Shown here in pieces: positions 1 through 37,316 of a DNA stretch of 39,509 nt. Both the position numbers and the translations under genes were made by a program. The notes beneath the pieces were generated by a model. The model made no database searches, had not been told where the DNA came from, and saw nothing but the letters and a program-made list of their open reading frames with translations. The stretch's first letter is position 1. Every line of letters starts with the position of its first letter. Source of the stretch: a virus; IMG/VR virus record IMGVR_UViG_3300021197_001432, positions 1 to 39,509 of that record; one strand, written 5' to 3'.

Positions 1-7
1 CCACATT

Positions 8-36
8 ATGTTAAATTTATTATGTATACTTATCAA
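8..36 (-). promoter_or_regulatory. Possible promoter reading toward terS across the window junction
   Basis: On the minus strand TTGATA (31-36) is followed after 17 bp by TAACAT (8-13) in very AT-rich DNA. If the molecule is circular, it reads across base 1 into 39509 and the small terminase gene that starts at 39479. The match to a sigma70 promoter is seen; its use and the circularity are inferred. Confidence 0.35.
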
Positions 37-72
37 TGACTTAGCTTTCCCAAGCCGAATTCATGCCAAAAT

Positions 73-114
73 ATAAGTCCAGTTGGACTTATGTTGACCT
101 CAAACTGGACTTAT
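73..114. promoter_or_regulatory. Operator-like cluster: three TGGACTTAT sites
   Basis: ATAAGTCCA (73-81) and TGGACTTAT (84-92) form a perfect inverted repeat with 9-bp arms and a GT centre. A third exact TGGACTTAT follows at 106-114. Site starts are 11 and 22 bp apart, so all would lie on one face of the helix. The cluster is upstream of the possible terS promoter, which fits a repressor or activator array. The GC-rich stretch 120-161 holds a weak imperfect hairpin and no gene. Confidence 0.5.
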
Positions 115-161
115 CGCATCACACGCGCCCGTGCTTCGCTGCGGCTGTGCCTCGCAGAGCC

Positions 162-386
162 TCAATCGCTATCCTCTTGGTTTTGCTCATCATATTCAGA
201 TACTACCTGATCGATCCACTCGTTGACAACAGGGTCAACCTCTTCAGTCCGCTTCCATTTGGTGTGATAATTGGTATCACTAAAGTGCGTCAGGCCGCTC
301 AGCTTATCCAGCAAAGATAAATCCTCTTGGACATCCATGTCCTCCACGATCTCCATCAGTGCGTCATTGACCTTATGAATAGCCAT
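162..386 (-). CDS. Small acidic hypothetical protein (74 aa)
   Basis: Last gene of the leftward early operon. The protein is strongly acidic, rich in D and E, with no membrane segment, no cysteine and no motif I recognise; it ends in a run of Glu, Asp, Ser and Gln. The ATG lies a few bases after the stop of the preceding gene, and the GGTGAG at the end of that gene can serve as ribosome binding site, so translation is probably coupled. Function unknown. Acidic small phage proteins often bind host proteins, but nothing here shows this. Confidence 0.6.
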   Translation of the reverse strand: MAIHKVNDALMEIVEDMDVQEDLSLLDKLSGLTHFSDTNYHTKWKRTEEVDPVVNEWIDQVVSEYDEQNQEDSD

Positions 387-391
387 AACAA

Positions 392-712
392 CTACTCACC
401 GCCAAACGCATCGTCCCAATCAAACTCGCCCTTCGCGTCGCGGCGCAATGCCATGGCGATCACCAAGTAGTTCATCTGATCGAGCAGGCTGTCCTCGCCT
501 GTGTCGCCCCTGTCCATGCGGGCTGCCTTCAGCTCCGCCATGAGGCGCGCCACATCAACGGTGCTGACCTCTGCGCCATCCTTTAGCTTCCCACGCAGTA
601 CAAGCGTCCACCGGGTTGCGATAGCCTGATGCAGGTCAACTGCACTGCCGTAGCTCTTCTGCCTGTCCTCAAGGATGCCCTGAGCTGTTCCCAGGATCTT
701 CTTATAGTTCAT
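392..712 (-). CDS. DUF6378-like phage protein (106 aa)
   Basis: The pattern ILEDRQKSYGSA near the N-terminus, then a central STVDVARLMAELKAARM and a late DSLLDQMNYLVIAMAL helix, resembles the small phage family DUF6378, which has no assigned activity. These proteins are compact and helical, somewhat like MazG-type folds, but no catalytic set can be pointed out. It sits in the replication operon, two bases after the stop of the winged-helix gene, and no independent promoter is visible. Family recognition is from memory of the motif. Confidence 0.7.
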   Translation of the reverse strand: MNYKKILGTAQGILEDRQKSYGSAVDLHQAIATRWTLVLRGKLKDGAEVSTVDVARLMAELKAARMDRGDTGEDSLLDQMNYLVIAMALRRDAKGEFDWDDAFGGE

Positions 713-714
713 CG

Positions 715-1044
715 TTAATGCCTCGTTTTGTAAAATGCCCGCCGACCATCCATGTAGTCGGTGTAAATAAAGTCGCGGCTCTGCAGGATGTGGATGTTGT
801 TGCCGACCACGGTTGAGCGCAGATCGAGCGCGCCCTCTATCTCCGATGCAAATGCACCGCCGTTCCGCCTGATAAAGTTCAGCACTGCCATCGTGTGCTT
901 GCTCAGCGGCCGCACAGCGATCCTACGCGCCTTGTCGTGCGGCAAAGGCTCACGATACCCTAGCTGTGCTTGAAGCCGCTCAAAGTTCACCATGCGCTTA
1001 CCCAGCGCCTCTTCCACATCTCTGGGTGATAACACCTCGTTCAT
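715..1044 (-). CDS. Winged-helix-like DNA-binding protein (109 aa)
   Basis: The C-terminal half (about residues 48-105) reads as a winged helix: SKHTMAVLNFIRRNGGAFAS, then a recognition-helix-like stretch (LRSTVVGNNIHILQSRDFI) and a basic wing ending RRAFYKTRH. The start ATG overlaps the stop of the upstream gene as ATGA. Being close to the iteron cluster and the primase-helicase gene, it could be the protein that binds the repeats, but that is only an inference from position. Confidence 0.55.
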   Translation of the reverse strand: MNEVLSPRDVEEALGKRMVNFERLQAQLGYREPLPHDKARRIAVRPLSKHTMAVLNFIRRNGGAFASEIEGALDLRSTVVGNNIHILQSRDFIYTDYMDGRRAFYKTRH

Positions 1045-1379
1045 CTCTTTGCCTTTCGCTGTAGTTCATATTTTCTGATAAGAATTGCCGCGCGCTGCCA
1101 ATCGTTCCATTTCGGCAGCTCTGGTGCGCTCAGCCAACGCCGACGATTAGCCAAACCCTCCAAGGTTGGCAGGTCATCTATTTCGCCAAGAATGAAGCTG
1201 AATTGTTTTTCACTTAATTCACTGTAATCCACACCAAACTCAGGACAGGACATCAGGACAGGACAGCCAACCTTTAGGGGTTGGCCTGTTGTCCTGAGCC
1301 GTACCTTTATGTCCGCATGTTGTCCTAGTGCTGTCCTCAACCTGTCCTCAACCTCTTTAACCCATTGTTTTTGCTTCAT
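1041..1379 (-). CDS. Basic hypothetical protein overlapping the iterons (112 aa)
   Basis: No family recognised. The protein is rich in K and R, with an N-terminal helix (KQWVKEVEDRLRTALGQ) and a basic C-terminus. I chose the ATG at 1379; the reading frame continues upstream to a GTG at 1415, but those extra residues (SCPESCPE) are simply the translation of two iterons. The left group of repeats lies within the gene and encodes the C-P-V and C-P-E residues near the middle. The ATGA overlap at its end couples it to the winged-helix gene. Confidence 0.55.
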   Translation of the reverse strand: MKQKQWVKEVEDRLRTALGQHADIKVRLRTTGQPLKVGCPVLMSCPEFGVDYSELSEKQFSFILGEIDDLPTLEGLANRRRWLSAPELPKWNDWQRAAILIRKYELQRKAKR

Positions 1380-1445
1380 TTTCTCAGGACAACTTTCAGG
1401 ACACGAGGACAACACCCGACATACGGCAGGACAAAACTCAGGACA
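1240..1445. repeat. Iteron cluster (TCAGGACA), candidate replication origin
   Basis: The hexamer AGGACA or its complement TGTCCT occurs 13 times in 206 bp, and CAGGACA nine times. Forward copies begin at 1241, 1246, 1254, 1259, 1385, 1397, 1427 and 1439, with an inverted copy at 1290-1296. The octamer TCAGGACA occurs six times. The central part (1321-1349) has only inverted TGTCCT copies. The cluster begins about 30 bp after the end of the primase-helicase gene and runs into the next gene. Closely spaced short repeats beside a replication gene are typical of iteron origins. Confidence 0.65.
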
Positions 1446-1476
1446 CTACTTTGCGGTGTGTCCCAGCCTGACCCCC

Positions 1477-3255
1477 TCATGCCACCACCACCAGACCGCC
1501 GCGCAGCGCCAAAACGCCCTTGTCGATCAGCTTTTTGATGTGCCTGTTTGCCGTCCGCTGCGAGCAATCCAACTCCAGCGCAACCGCCTCTTTCAGATCG
1601 TTACGCGCCGCCTCACCAAAGGCGCTGACCGTCCTGATCTGATCCATGATGACCTCTTTGATATACTCTGGGTCTTTCTTGTCCTGCGGCTTGTCTGGCG
1701 TGTAGTCTAGCGCCAGTGAGCTTGTGATACCGCCGTCCGCTGTCTCCAGCTCGTAGCTCACCTTCATAAAGCTCATCGGCTCTGGCTCCTCTGCGTCCTT
1801 CATCTTTGTGGCGGTCAGGACAAGCTTGTTGTCGCCCCAGCTTTCCACGCGATATTCGCAATCGAGCCGCCCGCGCAGCCTCGTACTACCGCGCGCCCTT
1901 TCGGTGTTCTGATGCCCCACATGGTGAACTATCATCACCGTGCAATTGAACTCCTCGCGGAGCTTGTCGCAGACATTGAGGTAAAGCGAGATGTCCTCGC
2001 CGTTGCTGTCGTCACCCATGATTGTGCGGTCAAGCGTATCCAGCACGATCATCTTTGGCGTGCCTGCCTCCTCCGCAATCTCTCGCAGCTCGGCAAGCAG
2101 TGGCTCACCTTTATCCTCGTCATTCAGCAGCACCGTCGTGTTGCTCTTGAAGAACGGCACGCCATCCAAGCTTACGCCGCGCGCCTTCTTCCATGCCGCG
2201 ACACGCCGCGCAAACCCACTGTGCCCCTCACCGGCGACAAAGATGACCGTACCGCCCGACACGTCGCGCCCGTGGTAACTGATGCCCGCCGCAACACTGA
2301 GCGCCACATCCAATGCCAAAAATGTTTTACCGCTGCCCGACGCGCCGAACAGCATGCTCAGCGCATCTTCCTCTATCATGCCGTCCACCAGCCATTTCGG
2401 CGTTGTCATCTGCAACTGATCAACGCGGGTGAACATTTTCTTAACCTCGGCCGCCCTCTGCAATCCCTGCCGCAGCGCCTCTGGGCCTTGCCTCACAAAA
2501 ACGTCGTTCCAGTCGTCACCCTCAATCTCTGGCGCAGCCCAACGCCTGCCGCTCTTTTTCGCCGCCTCAATGCCCTTCTTGTCGTTGTCCGCCGCCACGC
2601 ACAGCGTCAGCTCTGGAAACGCTTTGCCCACCGCCTCCACCACCTTGGGCAGCGTGCCCGCATCCAGCGCAAAGATGCACGGCCTCGGCCACATCGCCAT
2701 TGCCACGGCCGCGCTTGTCGCCCAACCCTCGGCCACCCAAACCTCACCCTCGGTCAGCTTGCCGCAGACGCCGAACACATCACCGCCGCTTTTATCCAAC
2801 CCGGCGTTGAACCTTTTCTGACCATCTGGCGATATACGTTGATACCCCACGCGCTCGCGCTGCGTATTGAACAGCGGCACGACCACGTTGTCGCCATCGA
2901 GCTGCGCGCCCAGCAAATCAACTTGCTTGCGCTCGTGGTAGAGCAGTGACCCGCCATCGTCCGACGCCGCCGCAAACGGGTTGGAATGCAGCGGCACGAC
3001 GTTGGGCGCTCGGATCGGCTCGGCGCTCGGCCAAACCCCGTCGCACCTCATCTCATCCGCCATATCGGCGATTGAGCAACCTTGGCGGCAGAACGCCTTT
3101 ACCAAGCCCTCGCTTTCTTTTATCCAAAAGCGATCCTTGCCCCCGCAGCTTGGACACGGGCCGTGCCACTCGCCCACAGAGGTTTGCTTGAGGCTGTACC
3201 TTGTGATGATCTGCTCGCCCCAGACTGACCACCAAGGTTGTTCAAATTCAGCCAT
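1477..3255 (-). CDS. Primase-helicase, RepA/DnaB-like with zinc and Toprim domains (592 aa)
   Basis: Replication protein expected to prime and unwind DNA. An N-terminal zinc finger is seen as C34-x2-C37 and C56-x3-C60. A Toprim-like domain has EGWATS (175-180) and AADND (221-225). The helicase/ATPase domain has Walker A GASGSGKT (304-311), Walker B MIVLDTLD (402-409) and a sensor stretch IVHHVG (442-447), as in RepA-like AAA_25 ATPases. A C-terminal winged helix (about 530-590) could contact the iterons found just downstream. The gene follows the SSB gene directly, so both are probably made together. With no phage polymerase present, the host replisome must do synthesis. Confidence 0.9.
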   Translation of the reverse strand: MAEFEQPWWSVWGEQIITRYSLKQTSVGEWHGPCPSCGGKDRFWIKESEGLVKAFCRQGCSIADMADEMRCDGVWPSAEPIRAPNVVPLHSNPFAAASDDGGSLLYHERKQVDLLGAQLDGDNVVVPLFNTQRERVGYQRISPDGQKRFNAGLDKSGGDVFGVCGKLTEGEVWVAEGWATSAAVAMAMWPRPCIFALDAGTLPKVVEAVGKAFPELTLCVAADNDKKGIEAAKKSGRRWAAPEIEGDDWNDVFVRQGPEALRQGLQRAAEVKKMFTRVDQLQMTTPKWLVDGMIEEDALSMLFGASGSGKTFLALDVALSVAAGISYHGRDVSGGTVIFVAGEGHSGFARRVAAWKKARGVSLDGVPFFKSNTTVLLNDEDKGEPLLAELREIAEEAGTPKMIVLDTLDRTIMGDDSNGEDISLYLNVCDKLREEFNCTVMIVHHVGHQNTERARGSTRLRGRLDCEYRVESWGDNKLVLTATKMKDAEEPEPMSFMKVSYELETADGGITSSLALDYTPDKPQDKKDPEYIKEVIMDQIRTVSAFGEAARNDLKEAVALELDCSQRTANRHIKKLIDKGVLALRGGLVVVA

Positions 3256-3258
3256 ATT

Positions 3259-3873
3259 TTAAAACGGTATCTCGTCATCTAGATCGAGGGAATTGCCCGT
3301 CTTGATGCTTTCAGCAGCGCTGGGCAGCCCAAACGGGTTGTCGCTCCTTGCTTCACTGGCGAAAGGATTATCACCGCCGTCCATGCGCTCTGCCAGCTCC
3401 ACCACCATCACGTTCTGCGGCCGTAGCGTTACGCCAACTTTGCCCGCGTATGCCCACGGCTTGATCAGCAGCTCCGCATGCACCTTGCTGTTTGTGGTGA
3501 GCTGAAAATCATCTGGCGCACGACTGCCGTCCTGCATCCACTGGCGCGGCTTGCTCCCAGGGTCCCCATATGTTTTCTTTTTGGCCTTCACGATGAAGCA
3601 ACCGCTGTCGTCCTTTTTGAACGTATCGCTTGCCTTGAACTCCTTGCCCTGCGCCGCGCTGTTTTCCTTTTGGAACGCGGCAAAAGCCTCGGTCATCTTT
3701 GCGGCAAGCTCTTTGCCCTGCGCCGCCGTGACCATTAGGTTGATCTCATAACTGCCCTCCGCATCTGTCGGATCAGTCGGCACAGACCGCATTGCTGCGG
3801 CGTCAAATTTATACGCCTTGTCCAACCTCGGCCAAAGCGCCGTCACGTTCTTCAATTGCATCGTATTCGTCAT
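3259..3873 (-). CDS. Single-stranded DNA-binding protein (204 aa)
   Basis: The protein ends in an acidic tail DLDDEIPF, the hallmark of SSB-type proteins that recruit partners through the last residues. The body fits phage SSB families of the DUF2815 type: an N-terminal KNVTALWPRLDKAYKFD strand region, basic central segments (KKTYGDPGSKPRQW) and NPF motifs near the end. The start is preceded by GGAGAG at good spacing. It lies between the exo-type nuclease and primase-helicase genes, so it probably coats DNA during replication and recombination. Confidence 0.82.
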   Translation of the reverse strand: MTNTMQLKNVTALWPRLDKAYKFDAAAMRSVPTDPTDAEGSYEINLMVTAAQGKELAAKMTEAFAAFQKENSAAQGKEFKASDTFKKDDSGCFIVKAKKKTYGDPGSKPRQWMQDGSRAPDDFQLTTNSKVHAELLIKPWAYAGKVGVTLRPQNVMVVELAERMDGGDNPFASEARSDNPFGLPSAAESIKTGNSLDLDDEIPF

Positions 3874-3877
3874 CTGT

Positions 3878-4696
3878 TTAGCTCTCCTCTGATAGCCATT
3901 CTGGTAAGTGCATCACGTTAAACGGCGGCCAATTTGTACTGAACTCTCCGCTTTCCTTAACGCGAGCGATGTCTGGCAAATGAAAATCTATGAGGCGCTC
4001 GGCGCGGCTCATCGCTTCATTGCCAAATATGTGCAGCATTGCTGCGTGCGGCGGTGCTTTTTCCACCACCAGAAATGCAAAATATCTTACGTCCCAACCG
4101 AGTTTCTGCGCGCACATGCGATACCACGCCGCTTGAGCGTCGTAGCCGAACTTGAACGCGCTTTTGGTGAACCCCGCCGGGGAGGCGTCGAGCGCCGTCT
4201 TTACGTCCGCCATAACGCCAGTTCGCTCAATCCAAAGGTCTGGCCGCGCTTTCATCACAACGCCGCTGTCATGCTCCACAAAGATCGAACCCTCGCAGAC
4301 CCTCTGCTTATCTTTCAGAATTTTGCCGCACTGCGGATTGTCCAGCAGCGCCTGCGCCATGGCTTGGCATTGGTCAAAGTCGCCCGCCGTCAGCAGCAGC
4401 TTGCCTGCCGCCTCCGCCGCATCCACGGCCTCGCTCCAGACCTTGCCGCGCCTTGTGTCTGGCCCACGCACCACCATGTCCAGCTCTGGCTCAAGCGTCA
4501 TGTAATGCACCGCCGTGCCCGTCGCTGCCGCCGCTGGACTAATCGTCATTCCGCCAAGCTCGGCGTGTAGCGCCGTCTTGTTGTAATAATTTTTGTAATA
4601 ACTGGACGACACGCACGGCTTGCCGCCCAACTCCTTTAGCGCGTGATAATCTTCGTTGCTGATGTCAGTGTGAAAGCCGAGGCTATATTCGTTCAT
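3878..4696 (-). CDS. PD-(D/E)XK exonuclease, RecE/exo VIII-like (272 aa)
   Basis: The order of motifs matches the exodeoxyribonuclease VIII-like (DUF3799) nucleases. GTAVH (60-64) and an early acidic residue are followed by RPDLW (151-155), DVK (164-166) as the D-x-K metal site, and a distal Q/YR helix (QAAWYRM, 188-194). Such enzymes chew one strand of duplex DNA and feed recombination or replication. It is next to the SSB gene; no separate annealing protein is recognised, so the SSB-like protein may serve that role. The start overlaps the upstream stop as ATGA. Confidence 0.82.
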   Translation of the reverse strand: MNEYSLGFHTDISNEDYHALKELGGKPCVSSSYYKNYYNKTALHAELGGMTISPAAAATGTAVHYMTLEPELDMVVRGPDTRRGKVWSEAVDAAEAAGKLLLTAGDFDQCQAMAQALLDNPQCGKILKDKQRVCEGSIFVEHDSGVVMKARPDLWIERTGVMADVKTALDASPAGFTKSAFKFGYDAQAAWYRMCAQKLGWDVRYFAFLVVEKAPPHAAMLHIFGNEAMSRAERLIDFHLPDIARVKESGEFSTNWPPFNVMHLPEWLSEES

Positions 4697-4860
4697 ACCT
4701 CAACCCCGCTGATCTGCCGCTCTAGCATCAGCAAGAGTTGGAGCAGCCCCTGCGCTCTTTGGCGCTGTGTCGGCCGCTCCGGGTCTCGCCCCAATTCCGT
4801 TTCCAGTGTTTCCAGTTCGTGACGCATCAGGTGCATCGTCGCGTTAAGCTCTTTATTCAT
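4693..4860 (-). CDS. Small helical hypothetical protein (55 aa)
   Basis: The protein is nearly all helix (LMRHELETLETELGRD, then LLQLLLMLERQI), a pattern seen in small dimeric coiled-coil phage proteins. The ATG at 4860 is supported by GGAGG six bases upstream, within the end of the zinc-ribbon gene, which it overlaps by 8 bp. It ends in an ATGA overlap with the exonuclease gene. Function unknown; it may be translated in step with its neighbours. Confidence 0.6.
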   Translation of the reverse strand: MNKELNATMHLMRHELETLETELGRDPERPTQRQRAQGLLQLLLMLERQISGVEV

Positions 4861-5014
4861 CGTCATCCTCCAGCTCGATTTCGCCATCACCGCCACAGGT
4901 TTCGCAGTCCGCCCAAACCTCGCCGAGCCACGCGCCGATCATGGTGGTTCCCATGACGGCCTCGTATTGGACTTGCTGCTCTCCTTGGCATTCAGGGCAA
5001 ATGGCGGCGCTCAT
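4853..5014 (-). CDS. Zinc-ribbon-like mini protein with two CxxC motifs (53 aa)
   Basis: A 53-codon frame that exactly fills the gap between two genes. It has CPEC at residues 6-9 and CETC at residues 37-40, a spacing suited to one zinc site, and ends in an acidic ELEDDDE tail. Its ATG overlaps the stop of the XRE regulator as ATGA and its end overlaps the next gene by 8 bp, so it fits the chain of coupled genes. Probably a zinc ribbon for protein or nucleic-acid contacts; the role is unknown. Confidence 0.72.
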   Translation of the reverse strand: MSAAICPECQGEQQVQYEAVMGTTMIGAWLGEVWADCETCGGDGEIELEDDDE

Positions 5015-5283
5015 GGATTTTCTCCAGCGCTGCTTACGAAGTGAAAATAAACGTGGACATCTAGTCGCCGAGTTTTGTCGGCAGGCGCGCTATAAAGGTC
5101 GCTTGCATTAATGTTCAGATAGTCAGCCATTTGCTGCACTGTCTGATAGCTGACGTTTACGACCTCGCCTCGCTCATATTTAGACAATAGTGATTGATTA
5201 ATTTTTAAATCATACGCCATTTTTGCCTGCGAAATGTGTTTTGTCAGTCGCGCTTTTCGCAGCGCTTCCCCGCAAAATTTCAT
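5011..5283 (-). CDS. XRE/Cro-family helix-turn-helix regulator (90 aa)
   Basis: A classic HTH of the Cro/CI type: ISQAKMAYDLKINQSLLSKY with QAKMA as first helix and QSLLSKYERG as recognition helix, followed by a short region ending near PADKTRRLDV. It has no protease or dimer domain like lambda CI, so it resembles Cro-type regulators. ATG 5283 has AGGA upstream; a GTG at 5310 that overlaps the methyltransferase stop (GTGA) is an alternative giving 99 aa. It may control the divergent region at 7199-7308 or one of the operator clusters. Confidence 0.8.
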   Translation of the reverse strand: MKFCGEALRKARLTKHISQAKMAYDLKINQSLLSKYERGEVVNVSYQTVQQMADYLNINASDLYSAPADKTRRLDVHVYFHFVSSAGENP

Positions 5284-5306
5284 TTTTTTAAATCCTGATT
5301 GCTCAG

Positions 5307-6416
5307 TCACAGCTTATCCACCATCGCTATACGCTCGCCGATCCACCGCATCACCGGCACAGCCATGCTGTTGCCCATGCATTTGTACCTCGGCCCATCG
5401 GGGCATTTTTCTGGCGCTTTGCCGCGCCAAGGGATTTGCGTGTAATCGTCGGGGAAACCTTGAAGGCGCTCGCATTCACGCGGCGTCAGGCGGCGCACTT
5501 GCATGCCCACCAACGCACCATTATGCCGCCGGCTGCCGTTGTTTGCATCAAGCGTGGCGTGTGTATCTTGTAGCCTCACGCCGCTTTGCGACGATTGAAA
5601 AGCCACCGCTGTCTTGTGCGTCACGCTAAGAGCTGGCGACAGCTCGGCCGTCAGCGTACCCATCACGTCGCGCTCTAATATAAGATGCCCGTTTTTCGCA
5701 GACTGGTGCGTCAGCTTTCCACCGCCGCACTCTGTGTCCAAGCTGCCTGCCGTTTCTGGCACAAAATGATTTACGGCTGCGCTTTCTGGTCGTCCGCCTG
5801 GGCCACCGACAAAAGAGCTTGATGCAATTGCACCGGCAACTTTTTGTTGCGCTTCTCTGCTCGGCGGAGAATGCCCTGACAAGCTCTCGCGCTCAAATAA
5901 AACTGCCGCGGCACGTCGCCAGTCTCCAAGACATCCGACAACGAACACACGCTTGCGTCGCTGTGCCAATCCCCAATATTGAGCGTCACAAAGTCTGTAA
6001 GCGAACCCATACCCGATTTTCCCCAGCGCCCCAAGGAAGGTTCCAAAATCTCGTCCTCTGTTAGATGACAGGACGCCGGGCACGTTTTCCCAAACCACCC
6101 ATCTGGGCCGATATTTTGCAGCAATGCTAAGGTAGGTGAGCATGAGGTTGCCACGAGGATCATCCAATCCTTGCCGCAATCCGGCGACGCTGAAACTTTG
6201 GCAGGGGGTTCCTCCAACAAGAAGCTCGATTGATCTGTCACTTGGCCACTCCTTAAATTTTCTCATATCGCCGAAATTCGGCACGTCGGGGTAATGGTGC
6301 TGAAGCACCGCCGACGGAAATTTTTCTATTTCGCTGAACCATTGCGGCTCCCAACCGAGCGGCTCCCAAGCAACCGTTGCGGCCTCTACGCCGCTGCACA
6401 CCGAGCCATACCTCAT
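5307..6416 (-). CDS. DNA (cytosine-5) methyltransferase (369 aa)
   Basis: Transfers methyl from S-adenosylmethionine to cytosine C5. Motifs in order: SAM-site start GSVCSGVEAA (4-13), catalytic PCQSFSVAG with Cys72, ENVPG (110-114), QRRKRVF (152-158), a variable target-recognition region, RECERLQGFPDDYT, and the final GNSMAVPV. All key motifs are intact. No cognate restriction gene is adjacent, so it is most likely an orphan enzyme protecting phage DNA from host restriction, or marking it. The ATG at 6416 overlaps the upstream stop as ATGA; a longer start at 6482 is unlikely. Confidence 0.93.
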   Translation of the reverse strand: MRYGSVCSGVEAATVAWEPLGWEPQWFSEIEKFPSAVLQHHYPDVPNFGDMRKFKEWPSDRSIELLVGGTPCQSFSVAGLRQGLDDPRGNLMLTYLSIAAKYRPRWVVWENVPGVLSSNRGRDFGTFLGALGKIGYGFAYRLCDAQYWGLAQRRKRVFVVGCLGDWRRAAAVLFERESLSGHSPPSREAQQKVAGAIASSSFVGGPGGRPESAAVNHFVPETAGSLDTECGGGKLTHQSAKNGHLILERDVMGTLTAELSPALSVTHKTAVAFQSSQSGVRLQDTHATLDANNGSRRHNGALVGMQVRRLTPRECERLQGFPDDYTQIPWRGKAPEKCPDGPRYKCMGNSMAVPVMRWIGERIAMVDKL

Positions 6417-6601
6417 TTGGTTGGCCTCGCCTGTGGGCGCAGCGATGTGTCGGGCGCAAGTTTTTCCTCGTCGTGCCGCCAATCAAAGATGACGCACTGG
6501 CGATCCAGCCCTTCATAGAGGTGATGCTTTTCCATGAACGCGTTGCAATCATCTGCGTCGGCGAACACGGCGAATGCGATCCAGACAAAGCCGTCAATCA
6601 T
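6413..6601 (-). CDS. Small hypothetical protein (62 aa)
   Basis: The protein starts FVWIAFAVFADADDCNAFM, which looks like a beta strand followed by a helix, and ends with a Lys/Arg/Pro tail. No family recognised. It is joined at both ends by ATGA overlaps (with the nuclease before it and the methyltransferase after it), so it is probably a real gene. An upstream in-frame ATG at 6643 would add 14 residues inside the nuclease gene and is less likely. Confidence 0.5.
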   Translation of the reverse strand: MIDGFVWIAFAVFADADDCNAFMEKHHLYEGLDRQCVIFDWRHDEEKLAPDTSLRPQARPTK

Positions 6602-7047
6602 TGCTCTGCCCTCACCGCCATCAGCTCGCGTGCGAGGTAGCAAAATCCATGCATTGATATGTCGGCCAGCTCTGTGTCCGCCGCTGCCCTTACGCCTGTG
6701 AGTGCTTCGCTGATGGCGGAGAAACTGACGACGGCTCTGGCAGCGCGAAAGTCATATTTATAGATGACGCATGGGTAGCAGGCTGTAAGCCGGGAGGAAG
6801 CTTCACAAGCCTGCTCCCATGCGCCCGCAGGAATTCCGTTTCCAGACTTCCTGCGCTTGCACTCAATTGAAAAAGGGAAGGAGACATCTTCACACTGAAG
6901 ATCATTTTCAAATTGAGTACGAACTTGTTCCAAATTCCGCTTGAAAACCAACCCAAGCTCATCCCACAGAAACGCCGCTGTTTCGCGCTCCAACTCCGCG
7001 CCGCGCTGGCGGTTTCTGCGGCTAATCTGACTGCGCGATTTAGCCAT
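6598..7047 (-). CDS. PD-(D/E)XK endonuclease-like protein (149 aa)
   Basis: Looks like a small phage nuclease of the Holliday-junction-resolvase-like PD-(D/E)XK group: a basic start with RNRQRGAELER (G16, E18), then the core FSIECKRRK with Glu62-Cys-Lys64 as the E-x-K metal site. The rest is compact alpha/beta. The role may be resolving branched replication or recombination intermediates before packaging. The start at 7047 has GGGGAG at good spacing and overlaps the end of the ribbon-helix-helix gene. Confidence 0.72.
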   Translation of the reverse strand: MAKSRSQISRRNRQRGAELERETAAFLWDELGLVFKRNLEQVRTQFENDLQCEDVSFPFSIECKRRKSGNGIPAGAWEQACEASSRLTACYPCVIYKYDFRAARAVVSFSAISEALTGVRAAADTELADISMHGFCYLARELMAVRAEQ

Positions 7048-7198
7048 TTTGCTGCTCCCCAAAGTGGGCGGTCAAAATGCGGTCAACCAGTTTCGCCAAG
7101 GATGTATTTTGGTTGCTTGCCTGACGTTGGAGCTTGTTTTTCAGCTCTGGGGTCACTCTGACAAACATCACAACACGTTGTTTTTTATCGGTTTTCAA
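7040..7198 (-). CDS. Ribbon-helix-helix (Arc/CopG-like) regulator (52 aa)
   Basis: A 52-codon gene at the head of the leftward operon. RVVMFVRVTPELKNKL is a typical RHH strand and first helix, with SNQNTSLAKLVDRIL as second helix; the length matches Arc-type dimers. The start is probably TTG at 7198 (ATG at 7168 would cut the beta strand). Its end overlaps the nuclease gene. First place in the operon, next to the divergent control region, suggests autoregulation and control of the rightward operon. Confidence 0.78.
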   Translation of the reverse strand: MKTDKKQRVVMFVRVTPELKNKLQRQASNQNTSLAKLVDRILTAHFGEQQNG

Positions 7199-7308
7199 TG
7201 CTGTATCTGCTCGCTGTAAAAAAATATTAGGTTTGGGTGTTGTAAATAAATATCAATGAAGCTAGCTTAATCCTACTGAACCGAAACTGAACTTAGATGG
7301 AGGAACTA
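7199..7308. promoter_or_regulatory. Divergent early control region with AAGCTAGCTT palindrome
   Basis: This AT-rich gap separates the leftward and rightward operons and must hold both promoters. It contains a perfect 10-bp palindrome AAGCTAGCTT (7259-7268). A leftward -10 candidate TAATAT is the complement of 7224-7229, and rightward TTGTAA (7240-7245) is a possible -35, though no good -10 sits at the right distance. A strong ribosome site GGAGGA (7299-7304) precedes the ATG at 7309. Confidence 0.5.
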
Positions 7309-7896
7309 ATGAAATTTGAGACAACACACGAAATCATCGTGACGCATATGACCAGAGGCAAAACTGCTTTTGGCGTCTGCACAACCACTGCGGAAAACGC
7401 GCATATTTCGCCCGCCATGGTGCAGAAAAATAACCTATCTGTGGGGTCTGTATGCCGGTGCATTCTGGTCAGCAATATCCACGATCCGAACGGCCGCACA
7501 CCTTGGCGCGTCGCTTGGGTTGGCGAGGTTGGGGAGGTTCAAGCCGCCCCACTTGTTGAACCTGTCCAACCTGTCCAACCTGTTGCGCCTGTCCAAGATC
7601 AAAGGCCGCAACCAAGGCCGAATAAAGACCCTTTTAACCGCCGACAAGAGAATATCACGGCGGCGCACGATGCGCTGATGTTTTTGAAGGAAAACTGCGA
7701 CTGTTACTACCGCACGGGCGAAATCAGCGAGGCTATCGGATTAGGCTCAAGGCGGATGTCCAACGTGATGGAGCAGCTCTACGCCCTTGGACAAGTCTAC
7801 AAGGCGTCAGTGACAAATTCGCCCGATCAGGCGCGCGTCAGCCTCACCTTATGGGCGGCAAACCTAGACCCATTTTTAGCCGAGGAAAGCGCATGA
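7309..7896 (+). CDS. Two-domain regulator: OB/cold-shock-like plus winged helix (195 aa)
   Basis: First gene of the rightward operon. Residues 5-65 look like a small beta-barrel (EIIVTHMTRGKTAFGV, then GSVCRCILVSNI and RTPWRVAWV) in the style of cold-shock/OB folds. A flexible linker of repeated P-V-Q follows (about 75-95). The C-terminal part (about 115-175) is a winged helix with YRTGEISEAIGLGSRRMSNV. It may bind RNA or DNA and switch genes. ATG 7309 has GGAGGA five bases upstream; the ATG at 7297 has none. I do not know a named homologue. Confidence 0.6.
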   Translation: MKFETTHEIIVTHMTRGKTAFGVCTTTAENAHISPAMVQKNNLSVGSVCRCILVSNIHDPNGRTPWRVAWVGEVGEVQAAPLVEPVQPVQPVAPVQDQRPQPRPNKDPFNRRQENITAAHDALMFLKENCDCYYRTGEISEAIGLGSRRMSNVMEQLYALGQVYKASVTNSPDQARVSLTLWAANLDPFLAEESA

Positions 7897-7945
7897 TTTG
7901 CGCTCCGCTAAAAAATCCATATTGTGCTGCGAAGGGAGAAAGCAG

Positions 7946-8647
7946 ATGAAAGTGGGAGCATTTTTGTCGGACGGTTCACGTCCCGACAAACAGGAGACAC
8001 AACGCCGTCAAATTAAGTCGCTCAAGAAGGGCGCGCCTGATTTTTCAGCCAAGTGGTTCATAGAGGCAGGGAGCGCCAAGCGCCCCTTTGACGAGCGATC
8101 CGAGCTGATGGAGTGCCTTGCGTATTGCAAAAGCACTTCCAGCGTTTTGGCCTTGGCATCGCTGAGCGGCTTCGCTGAACGCAAGTGGCAAGCTCTGAAA
8201 TTCCTAGAGCAACAAGTTGCCGAGCTTGGGGTTGACGTGATCGTGGCGGACAACCCTGTTGTCACCTCGGCGTCAGTCGCTGCACTTGCAGGGATGGCCG
8301 AACATCAGCGAAACGAGCTTGTCCAAAAGTCGGGCGAGGCGCTTCAGCGCATCCGCGAACAGATAGACAAGCACGGCGTCCACGTTACGCCGCAGGGCAA
8401 GGAAATCCATACCCTTGGCGCGCCGTCACTTGAAAAGCTTAGCGAGGCAGGCAATGCTGCGCGAGCTAAAGCGGCGGATCAACACGCAGAGGACGTTTGG
8501 CCAATGGTCAAAAGTTTTCTGGATCGTGGACTAGGGTATGCGGGAACAGCTAGGCAAATGAACCGCCTCGGCGTGGCTACGGCCAAGGGCGGCAAATGGT
8601 ATCCAAGCACAATCGTAAATATAAATAAAAGAATGGGTGGTAAGTAA
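7946..8647 (+). CDS. Diverged serine-recombinase-like protein, probably not catalytic (233 aa)
   Basis: The C-terminal two thirds match large serine resolvase-type proteins: VIVADNPVVTSASVAALAGM, AEHQRNELVQKSGEAL, a GAPS hinge, then a final helix-turn-helix with NRLGVATAKGGKW. In this family the N-terminus reads R-V-S and later D-R-L-x-R. Here the first site reads GAFLSDGS (Ser8 kept, no Arg before it) and the second reads SLSGFAER, so the conserved Asp and Arg are gone. It probably binds DNA without cutting. Start has GGGAG upstream. Confidence 0.68.
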   Translation: MKVGAFLSDGSRPDKQETQRRQIKSLKKGAPDFSAKWFIEAGSAKRPFDERSELMECLAYCKSTSSVLALASLSGFAERKWQALKFLEQQVAELGVDVIVADNPVVTSASVAALAGMAEHQRNELVQKSGEALQRIREQIDKHGVHVTPQGKEIHTLGAPSLEKLSEAGNAARAKAADQHAEDVWPMVKSFLDRGLGYAGTARQMNRLGVATAKGGKWYPSTIVNINKRMGGK

Positions 8648-10510: not shown

Positions 10511-10521
10511 TTGGGGCAAAA

Positions 10522-10703
10522 AGTTCCAACTCGTTGAAAAAAAGTTCCAAATTTTGGAAAAATATAAAGGAAAAACAGATGTTTAAAGAGGTAGTGGCAG
10601 CCCGTAGGGAGGCGCGTCTTTTTGTTAAAAACAAAGGCTTATCGTTAAAAGTTCCAAATTCTCCCGTCGTGGGAGATCATAGGCTTAGCTGGCGCAGTTC
10701 CAA
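10522..10703 (+). repeat. Four AGTTCCAA repeats after the integrase gene, possible arm-type sites
   Basis: AGTTCCAA occurs at 10522-10529, 10543-10550, 10650-10657 and 10696-10703. The first two, each inside AAAAAGTTCCAA and 21 bp apart, are in the 68-bp gap after the integrase. The second copy is part of an inverted repeat TTCCAAA-T-TTTGGAA (10545-10559). Such short direct repeats beside an integrase gene resemble arm-binding sites of an attP region. The last two copies lie inside the next gene. No tRNA-like core is seen. Confidence 0.4.
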
Positions 10704-20666: not shown

Positions 20667-21959
20667 CTAGTTTCCTAATGCTTGGAGGTAACGTTTGCGC
20701 TGTTCCTCTGTGAAACCTTCGCGCCAATGCTTTTGCCAAGCCTCGTCTGTTGGGAAACTTTGTGCGGCTGCGCCAGTTGTTGGCCGTGGCGGTACGTCTA
20801 AGATTGTTGGTCGTTTTAGCAATTCACCGGCATAGCTGATGTCTGGCACGACTAAGCTGGGGTCTAGCCCTGCCTGCACCGCAAAGTCACGGTATTGGTT
20901 GGCAACTTTGTCATACTGCCCCTGCGCGCTCTTATATAGGCCAGTTGCCCGCGCCACAAAATCAGCTCGCTGTGCCGCTGACAAAAGTGTGCCCGTTTCG
21001 ATTGATCCGACCAACGCCTTAATGCGCTCGCCGTATGAGCCAGCGCTTGCCGCGGCAGAAAATTCGCTTTCCCTTACGACAGAACCGGGATCAAGCATTT
21101 TCATAAAGTTAAATATCAGTGACAAGTCGCCAGCCGCCGTTGGCCCGCCTTGGATCGCTGACGCAATGCGGCCATAGGCAAAAGAAACCTCAGAAAAGCC
21201 TTTTGCCTCCGCGCGGCCAGAAAACTCCTTGCGAGCTTCCATCACCCTCTTAGCCATTTCACCCTGCGTTTTGGGGTCAGTCAGCGTCTGGCTTAAATAA
21301 GTGCTAATTGCGTCTTTAGCGGTAATCGCGCCAGTGTTTAAAGCGCCCAACACGGCGGCCGCCACAGTATCACCGCTTTCCGCCTTTTGCGTGAGCATGT
21401 CCACGGTTCTATTTCGTGATTTGTTGGCAGTCCGCCGCTGCTTCCCAGCGTCCATATTCGCCGCTAGATTTGGGTCAGGATTTAGCGTCATCGAGTTGAG
21501 CCAGTTGGCCATCGTGCCACTGAAATCTTTAAACCTGTCGCGCTCGTAAAACTTTTGTCCAGTTTCACCTTGCGCCCCAGCTTGCATCTTTTGCAGGCCG
21601 AACATTTCCAGAAGCCCGCCGCCGCGTTGCTGTTGTTGTGGAGCGACAGGGCGTGATGCTGTCGATATAGTCGGGTCTTGCAGCGCTGTGCTGGCAGTGG
21701 CCACTGTTTGATCAGCAGTTTGCGGGTTGCTAGCGGGGGCGGCAGGGGGCGGGCTTTGCAGCGCCAGAGCGATTGCCCGCTGGAGGTCATCGACGTTTGC
21801 GTTTGGGTTTGCCGCCAAGGCTGCTTGGGCGGCTTGAATGCTCCGCAGCTCGTTTCCCGCTTGCGCCATTTCTCCAGCAAAAGCGCCTCTGAGCGATGGA
21901 ATGACCGGCGAAAATCTGTCGATGATGTCTTGTGTAAGCGGAAATTCGGACAGAGCCAT
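20667..21959 (-). CDS. Internal virion/ejection protein (430 aa)
   Basis: Ala/Gln-rich N-terminal half with a proline-rich linker (about 65-110), then a helical part with FMKMLDPGSVVRESEFSAA (about 290-310). That LDPGSVVRE-E motif is widespread in internal virion proteins of marine podoviruses. It is probably ejected with the genome. The ATG follows a GGAGCG site. Together with the genes on either side it forms the three-gene ejection block. Confidence 0.72.
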   Translation of the reverse strand: MALSEFPLTQDIIDRFSPVIPSLRGAFAGEMAQAGNELRSIQAAQAALAANPNANVDDLQRAIALALQSPPPAAPASNPQTADQTVATASTALQDPTISTASRPVAPQQQQRGGGLLEMFGLQKMQAGAQGETGQKFYERDRFKDFSGTMANWLNSMTLNPDPNLAANMDAGKQRRTANKSRNRTVDMLTQKAESGDTVAAAVLGALNTGAITAKDAISTYLSQTLTDPKTQGEMAKRVMEARKEFSGRAEAKGFSEVSFAYGRIASAIQGGPTAAGDLSLIFNFMKMLDPGSVVRESEFSAAASAGSYGERIKALVGSIETGTLLSAAQRADFVARATGLYKSAQGQYDKVANQYRDFAVQAGLDPSLVVPDISYAGELLKRPTILDVPPRPTTGAAAQSFPTDEAWQKHWREGFTEEQRKRYLQALGN

Positions 21960-36966: not shown

Positions 36967-37316
36967 TGGCTATGGCAAGCAAGCGATACCCAATAGTGTT
37001 TGGTAATTTCGACAACGGTGAAGCGTTTGACAAGATTTTTGCCGCCGTAAGTCAATATGGCTTTGAGGATAATTCATGGCACAACGACACACAGCCTTGC
37101 ATGGTGCAAGATGGTGGTCACGGCTTTCAACTGACAATTTGGGTTGATTATAAAGACCCCGATTTGGCTGAATATGTTGATGCGCGCAAAGATGGATCAG
37201 TGAAGCAATTCATCTTCTGTGAGCAAAATACCGACACGTTTGAGATTACGGAAGAGTGGCAACACGACGACGTTGACGCGCTGATTGCGCACGTCAAAAA
37301 AGTGATGGAGGCGTAG
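36966..37316 (+). CDS. Hypothetical protein (116 aa)
   Basis: Starts ASKRYPIVFGNFDNGEAFDK and has IFAAVSQYGFEDNSWHNDTQ, GGHGFQLTIWVDYKDPDLAE and a C-terminal helix. A small alpha/beta protein of unknown role. The ATG overlaps the preceding stop (TGATG) and is served by GGAAGGG. An alternative internal ATG is two codons on. It is third in the cassette. Confidence 0.58.
   Translation: MAMASKRYPIVFGNFDNGEAFDKIFAAVSQYGFEDNSWHNDTQPCMVQDGGHGFQLTIWVDYKDPDLAEYVDARKDGSVKQFIFCEQNTDTFEITEEWQHDDVDALIAHVKKVMEA

Follow-up and report, generated by a model that had tools for sequence, protein, structure and literature searches.

A probable phage replication origin: an iteron cluster immediately past the gene of a RepA-type primase-helicase

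Where does a tailed phage start to copy its genome, and which of its proteins recognizes the starting point? The question is raised by a dense group of short repeats in the window, i.e. the whole stretch of viral DNA analysed here, an IMG/VR virus record of 39,509 nucleotides, which encodes a terminase large subunit, a portal, a major head protein, an integrase and an endolysin. The repeats lie beside a set of minus-strand replication genes, namely those of an exonuclease VIII-like protein (3878-4696), a Gp2.5-like single-stranded DNA-binding protein (3259-3873) and a primase-helicase of 592 residues (1477-3255). Past the latter, on the same strand, come a short ORF (1041-1415), a 109-aa MarR-like winged-helix protein (715-1044) and a DUF6378 protein.

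The repeat cluster and its anatomy

Exact matching finds 13 AGGACA/TGTCCT hexamers within 1242-1445. The density outside the cluster predicts 0.10 for 206 bp (Poisson P(≥13) ~2e-23), and the window as a whole contains 33 copies, against 14.2 ± 3.2 in shuffled sequences. Four copies start on the plus strand in a distal group (1242, 1247, 1255 and 1260), four on the minus strand in a central group (1290, 1321, 1332 and 1343) and five on the plus strand in a helicase-proximal group (1386, 1398, 1406, 1428 and 1440). The octamers TCAGGACA/TGTCCTGA occur six times inside the cluster (1240, 1253, 1290, 1384, 1396 and 1438) and twice elsewhere in the window. A preliminary description of this DNA had reported 13 hexamers in 206 bp with about 0.1 expected, two forward groups around a central inverted one and six octamers, all of which the recount reproduces; the count against shuffled sequence that it had proposed points the same way. 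An unbiased score of word enrichment likewise ranks the cluster first in repetitiveness among all 200-bp stretches of the window (21.0, with the runner-up at 10.5). Short direct and inverted repeats beside a replication gene, as in an iteron-type origin next to its initiator gene, are thus present.

In the minus-strand direction the cluster spans 32-235 bp past the stop codon of the primase-helicase gene (1477). Since it begins 32 bp past that codon, it does not overlap the gene, and the earlier statement that the cluster runs from the end of this gene into the next one fails in its first part; its second part depends on the start codon that is used by the downstream ORF (1041-1415, minus strand). 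This ORF has alternative starts at 1379 (ATG), 1253 (ATG) and 1232 (GTG), so that the overlap is start-dependent and the further claim that the repeats dictate the codons of the gene is not established. Conservation is confined to its C-terminal ~62 residues, an 'ANRRR' domain at about 1041-1229 that ends ...EGLANRRR...RKYELQR and is seen in 23 of the 36 clusters of relatives described below, and in L130, L131, L153, L162, L166, L177 and L182 an in-frame stop pushes the start of the gene past most or all of the iterons. Because of these stops and the other starts available in the window, it seems best to treat the repeats as DNA of the origin and not as coding sequence.

Followed along the minus strand, on which the helicase gene runs, the probable origin at 1242-1445 consists of 13 iterons, an AT-rich spacer and a palindrome. 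The helicase-proximal group of five iterons (1386-1445, plus strand) is followed by the spacer (AAAAACAA...TTA; 1349-1384, minus strand), which carries AAAACAA...TTA and separates this group from a helically phased triplet of iterons (1321, 1332 and 1343 in 11-bp steps; 1321-1348, minus strand). With a GC content of 0.33, compared with 0.55 for the locus and 0.25-0.39 for the spacers of eight relatives, the spacer is a candidate DNA-unwinding element, and an AT-rich element adjoining the iterons, as looked for in an origin, is therefore found in the window. Next comes the palindrome GCCAACC-TTTAGG-GGTTGGC (1266-1285), with one inward-pointing iteron on its helicase side (1290-1295, minus strand) and four on its distal side (1242-1265, plus strand).

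For the palindrome with its flanking iterons, folding prediction gives a hairpin on each of the two DNA strands (z about -5.4). The palindrome is unlikely to be a terminator, because no T-run is present, and a scan for promoters and terminators found no promoter-like or terminator-like site within 1242-1445. Rfam gave no match within window positions 1-8000. EM motif discovery returned degenerate, low-complexity motifs only, and word counts were therefore used instead. The GC-skew minima lie ~1-6 kb from the cluster, near divergent promoters, and speak neither for nor against an origin.

The same place with different letters in relatives

Protein-based searches yielded about 100 relative loci (L-numbers) with an intact helicase 3′ end, which were grouped into 36 clusters at 85% identity. 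In 27 of these a strong repeat cluster (score 9-30) is found at the helicase 3′ end, while the score elsewhere in any relative locus never exceeds 9.8; five more clusters (L007, L131, L166, L171 and L222) have weaker yet visible repeats there, and those of L223 are indistinguishable from background. The words are lineage-specific: AGGACA, AAAGACAT, GCGATGCG, GCGGGACA, TTGGACA, GGCTGGAA, ATACCA, GTAACA, GTACCA, TGTATGAA, ACTACAAA, CGGTACA, GGTTCA and others. What is kept across lineages is the layout, with iteron runs phased at 10-12 bp, an AT-rich spacer and a palindrome with inward-pointing iterons. This is the pattern that the preliminary description had suggested looking for, namely repeats conserved in place but not in sequence. 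It had also named the loss of repeats from close relatives with intact replication genes as evidence to the contrary, and such loss is seen in one clade (L198, L208 and L211; three clusters with 19 loci), where the helicase is present, no iterons are detectable at its 3′ end and other genes come directly after it. In this clade the origin may have moved. In L198 and L211 the gene directly after the helicase resembles, as read by eye, that of the DUF6378 protein of the window.

The geometry is reproduced closely. In the window, L018, L149 and L178, iterons lie at about -68, -57, -46 and -14 from the palindrome centre; in L004, which uses a different word, they lie at -69, -58, -47 and -15, and in L155 at -69, -59 and -48. 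A similar run in the opposite orientation is seen in L177, L182, L135, L173 and L130. When nine origins are aligned, RGGACA is replaced by AAGACA at each phased site of L004 with the spacing unchanged. Runs of at least three iterons in 10-12-bp steps were detected in 19 of the 27 clusters tested, with the words for each cluster picked by eye from word counts, against a mean of 1.5 and a maximum of 6 for random placement (2000 trials). Palindromes that have CT-N(0-3)-AG at their centre and a stem of five or more occur at the site with 10.6 times the density seen in other places (p = 5.5e-13; 20 of 36 clusters), and they typically have inward-pointing iterons on both flanks, for example CGGGACACACCCCTAAGGGGTGTCCCG of L155.

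Three of the relatives (L018, L063 and L125) were first obtained, among the matches listed, by a TGTCCT DNA-pattern scan of viral contigs, and are therefore biased towards the iteron of the window. In L063 the octamer of the window, TCAGGACA, occurs nine times at about -31 to +170 from the stop codon of a RepA-type helicase with an unrelated C-terminus, which is possibly a selection effect or convergence.

In complete genomes the helicase 3′ site is the top repeat in six of seven cases and the second in Salicola phage CGphi29, and beyond the 36 clusters phage Lust of E. coli and phage ST231 have repeats at this position as well. For most tailed phages the origins are unknown; the simple rule emerging here, to look for clustered repeats on the 3′ side of the gene for a RepA-type primase-helicase, points to a probable one in some thirty lineages, among them named phages of Roseobacter, Alteromonas, Idiomarinaceae, Salicola and E. 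coli. RepA-type phages that break the rule exist, as iterons are absent in the more distant Caulobacter GB2A, Vibrio 19E33.1, Corynebacterium phi673, MW202475, Ro145clw and Indlovu.

Several loci deserve separate mention. Phage Lust (L244) has two GCGGGACA clusters with a common palindrome segment (20870-21130 and 37090-37195), one at the helicase 3′ end and the other 16 kb away between tail genes. The same rep-iteron arrangement is found in a Caenibius plasmid with a terminase gene (L237, CTTCCGCA x12) and in a 17-kb circular Klebsiella element with integrase and capsid genes (L238, GTGCGGCA x5). In the genome of Rhodobacterales bacterium LSUCC0387 (L222), GGCGACA repeats extend across the helicase 3′ end, which suggests that part of this phage family has Rhodobacterales hosts.

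Origin or operator, and the protein that reads the iterons

Domain search and an AlphaFold2 model (pLDDT 82) show that the primase-helicase unites a Zn-ribbon, a Toprim_3 domain, an AAA_25 (RepA-type) helicase and a C-terminal winged helix in one chain. The winged helix (residues 529-592; 1480-1671, minus strand), modelled in the order alpha-beta-alpha-alpha-beta-beta, is the proposed iteron-binding domain, with its predicted recognition helix at residues 566-578 (1522-1560, minus strand). A second model, for the L130 protein, which goes with a different iteron, likewise has a predicted winged helix at its C-terminus. By sequence the only close solved relative is RSF1010 RepA (1g8y, profile match with E = 2.7e-10), to which the helicase domain is related, while Foldseek places T7 gp4 first (1q57 and 6n9x) and RepA (1nlf) further down. 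Plasmids supplied many RepA-type helicases, none spanning 80% of the query.

Two natural recombinants, window/L007 and L130/L131, separate the parts of this locus. In both pairs the primase half is about 92-100% identical and the downstream genes mostly 80-98%, whereas the helicase, winged helix and iterons are only 16-60% alike. Between the window and L007, the Zn-ribbon/Toprim half is 92-100% identical and the downstream genes are nearly so, and similarity falls to 19-60% from about residue 265 to just beyond the iterons; L130 and L131 show the same swap pattern with the same two break zones. From these breaks it follows that the iterons travel with the helicase half and winged helix, while the primase half, downstream ORF and 109-aa gene are left behind.

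The cluster is very probably a phage replication origin, the initiator of which would be the primase-helicase encoded immediately before it. The preliminary description had likewise spoken of a probable phage origin, and its reading gains support from the relatives, in which the position and layout of the repeats are conserved and the letters follow the winged helix. Both origin activity and iteron binding are what we infer from these comparisons. One could imagine instead an operator array, on which the primase-helicase or another regulator represses or times the downstream genes while replication starts elsewhere. The genes on either side of the cluster do appear to form one operon, two proteins of the window (109 and 199 aa) are similar to MarR-type regulators, and initiators of iteron replicons often regulate genes as well. 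We nevertheless consider an operator array improbable, since 13 phased sites, together with the AT-rich spacer and the palindrome at the centre, far exceed the needs of an operator, the scan of this stretch found no promoter-like or terminator-like site, as noted above, and the unit moves with the helicase and not with the downstream genes.

Under the preferred reading as an origin, the binder can be sought by comparing proteins with iterons. The window and L004 share 82% identity in the helicase core and 52% in the winged helix, their recognition helices read CSQRTANRHIK and KSQRQADRDIK, and their iterons differ; the window and L018/L020/L152, which use one and the same iteron, share about 52% in the core and 81-83% in the winged helix (CSQRTANR[HY]IK). 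Across 30 clusters, partial Mantel tests of covariation, which is partly confounded by phylogeny, gave r = 0.25 (p = 0.0005) for the winged helix with the core controlled for and r = 0.16 (p = 0.03) for the converse. Since iteron identity tracks the winged helix better than the helicase core, the C-terminus of the primase-helicase, and not the 109-aa protein, is the likely iteron binder.

The preliminary description had offered both of these as candidates; the swaps, the covariation and the AlphaFold2 model favour the former. That the 109-aa protein or the downstream ANRRR protein binds the iterons and recruits the helicase seems very improbable to us. Both genes adjoin the cluster and the 109-aa protein is a MarR-like winged helix, but both are nearly identical in both swaps although the iterons change completely, and a homologue of the 109-aa protein is found in only 5 of the 36 clusters. 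The 109-aa protein is 93% identical in L007 despite wholly different repeats; two of its substitutions between the window and L007 (S to M and G to T) are grouped in what is presumed to be its recognition helix, which can be counted in its favour. Least credible of all is that the cluster serves packaging (pac/cos), recombination or partition. Although terminase genes lie within a few kb on the circular map in the window and some relatives, and phage-plasmid-like elements can carry RepA-type helicases too, the terminase genes are found at varying distances (>4 kb in CRP-811, XX1924 and Lust) and the iteron word tracks the helicase winged helix.

A proposed mechanism and its place among known replicons

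If the cluster is an origin read by the primase-helicase, initiation might proceed as follows. The winged helix would bind the iterons, as the natural swaps and the covariation suggest, and the arrays phased at ~11 bp, a layout that is directly observed, could build up one or two hexamers flanking the AT-rich spacer. The spacer would then melt, allowing the RepA/T7-gp4-type helicase to load itself, and the palindrome with its inward iterons may form hairpins on both strands that offer a site to the Toprim primase; with primase sites on the hairpins of both strands, forks could leave both ways. The specificity unit of helicase half, winged helix and iterons passes between phages as one cassette. 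This model copies what is established for SaPI/PICI replicons.

An iteron origin beside its own initiator is a known kind of replicon, and the parts of the present one have counterparts in several systems. The order of Zn-ribbon, Toprim and RecA-like helicase is that of T7 gp4, the source of the best Foldseek matches; T7 gp4 is not known to have a C-terminal winged helix or to recognize an iteron origin. The P4 alpha protein has an SF3 helicase and acts on two cis regions (ori and crr), whereas the window protein has an AAA_25/RepA-type helicase and no SF3 domain, and the window contains a single iteron cluster instead of two separate iteron regions; the two clusters of phage Lust are reminiscent of the P4 arrangement. 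P4 alpha is similar in that it unites a Toprim primase of bacterial type, a helicase and, at the C-terminus, a domain that binds the origin, and acts on repeats (compared in PMC4234260).

Similar in layout is SaPI/PICI Rep (Pri-Rep), a self-encoded initiator helicase with an iteron origin directly downstream of its gene, in which the Rep C-terminal domain reads two sets of iterons around an AT-rich region and plasmids with rep-ori are able to replicate (PMC7581432, PMC6092414); E. coli DH5alpha supports the replication of a PICI rep-ori arranged in this way (PMC6092414). The window has the same arrangement, with an AT-rich region between two iteron sets immediately 3′ of the rep gene. PICIs, however, are satellites, while the elements described here are mostly tailed phages, and the window, with its terminase large subunit, portal and major head genes, does not fit a satellite, which is without a full virion gene set. 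The described SaPI helicases are of the DUF927 or D5/Primase_Cterm type with AEP primases, in contrast to the Toprim and AAA_25 RepA-type domains here, and the palindrome with inward iterons is an addition of the present origins. The layout has been given as exclusive to PICIs (PMC6092414); our results extend it to tailed phages with a different helicase superfamily.

RSF1010 shares the RepA-type hexameric helicase, by profile (1g8y) and by fold (1nlf), and its oriV and ssiA/ssiB comprise iterons plus hairpins (PMC4234260); in the window a hairpin is predicted on both strands, and might be used by the primase in the manner of single-strand initiation hairpins. RSF1010 divides the work among three separate proteins, RepA, RepB′ (the primase) and RepC, whereas primase, helicase and proposed initiator form one chain here, and the window has no separate RepC initiator or RepB′ primase. 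In pRN1, too, the protein (ORF904) ends in a winged helix and the origin lies 3′ of the replication gene, conserved in structure but not in sequence (PMC4234260), but ORF904 is an archaeal AEP/SF3 protein acting on one 100-bp stem-loop without iterons. In PLE, the RepA initiator and its cognate iterons swap as a module, which has been proposed as an escape from the origin-directed nuclease Odn of ICP1 (PMC8263062), although the RepA_N initiator there has neither primase nor helicase.

In the open-licence literature, we found no description of a T7-gp4/RepA-type primase-helicase with a winged-helix tail, fixed geometry and exchangeable cassettes in tailed phages, and the analogues found there were limited to SaPI/PICI, P4, pRN1, RSF1010 and PLE; a roseophage paper (PMC12629253) gave no match for primase, repeat or iteron. 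We regard as evenly balanced the broader proposal of a one-protein replicon class not previously described as such. In it, a T7-gp4/RepA-type primase-helicase would be its own initiator through the C-terminal winged helix, on an origin of fixed geometry with freely changing iteron letters, and the helicase-winged helix-iteron cassette would be swapped, perhaps escaping origin-targeting parasites or incompatibility. If this is true, the paired iteron and recognition-helix sequences would constitute a natural specificity code. Since nature offers many pairs of winged helix and iteron, and two swaps of the module, the specificity between initiator and origin is directly testable.

Two other repeats were seen in the window. 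Near its left end (71-112), the inverted repeat ATAAGTCCAGTTGGACTTAT then CTGGACTTAT is possibly an operator. Four copies of AGTTCCAA just past the integrase gene (10521-10700) form the second most repetitive stretch of the window and are possibly integrase arm sites or attP.
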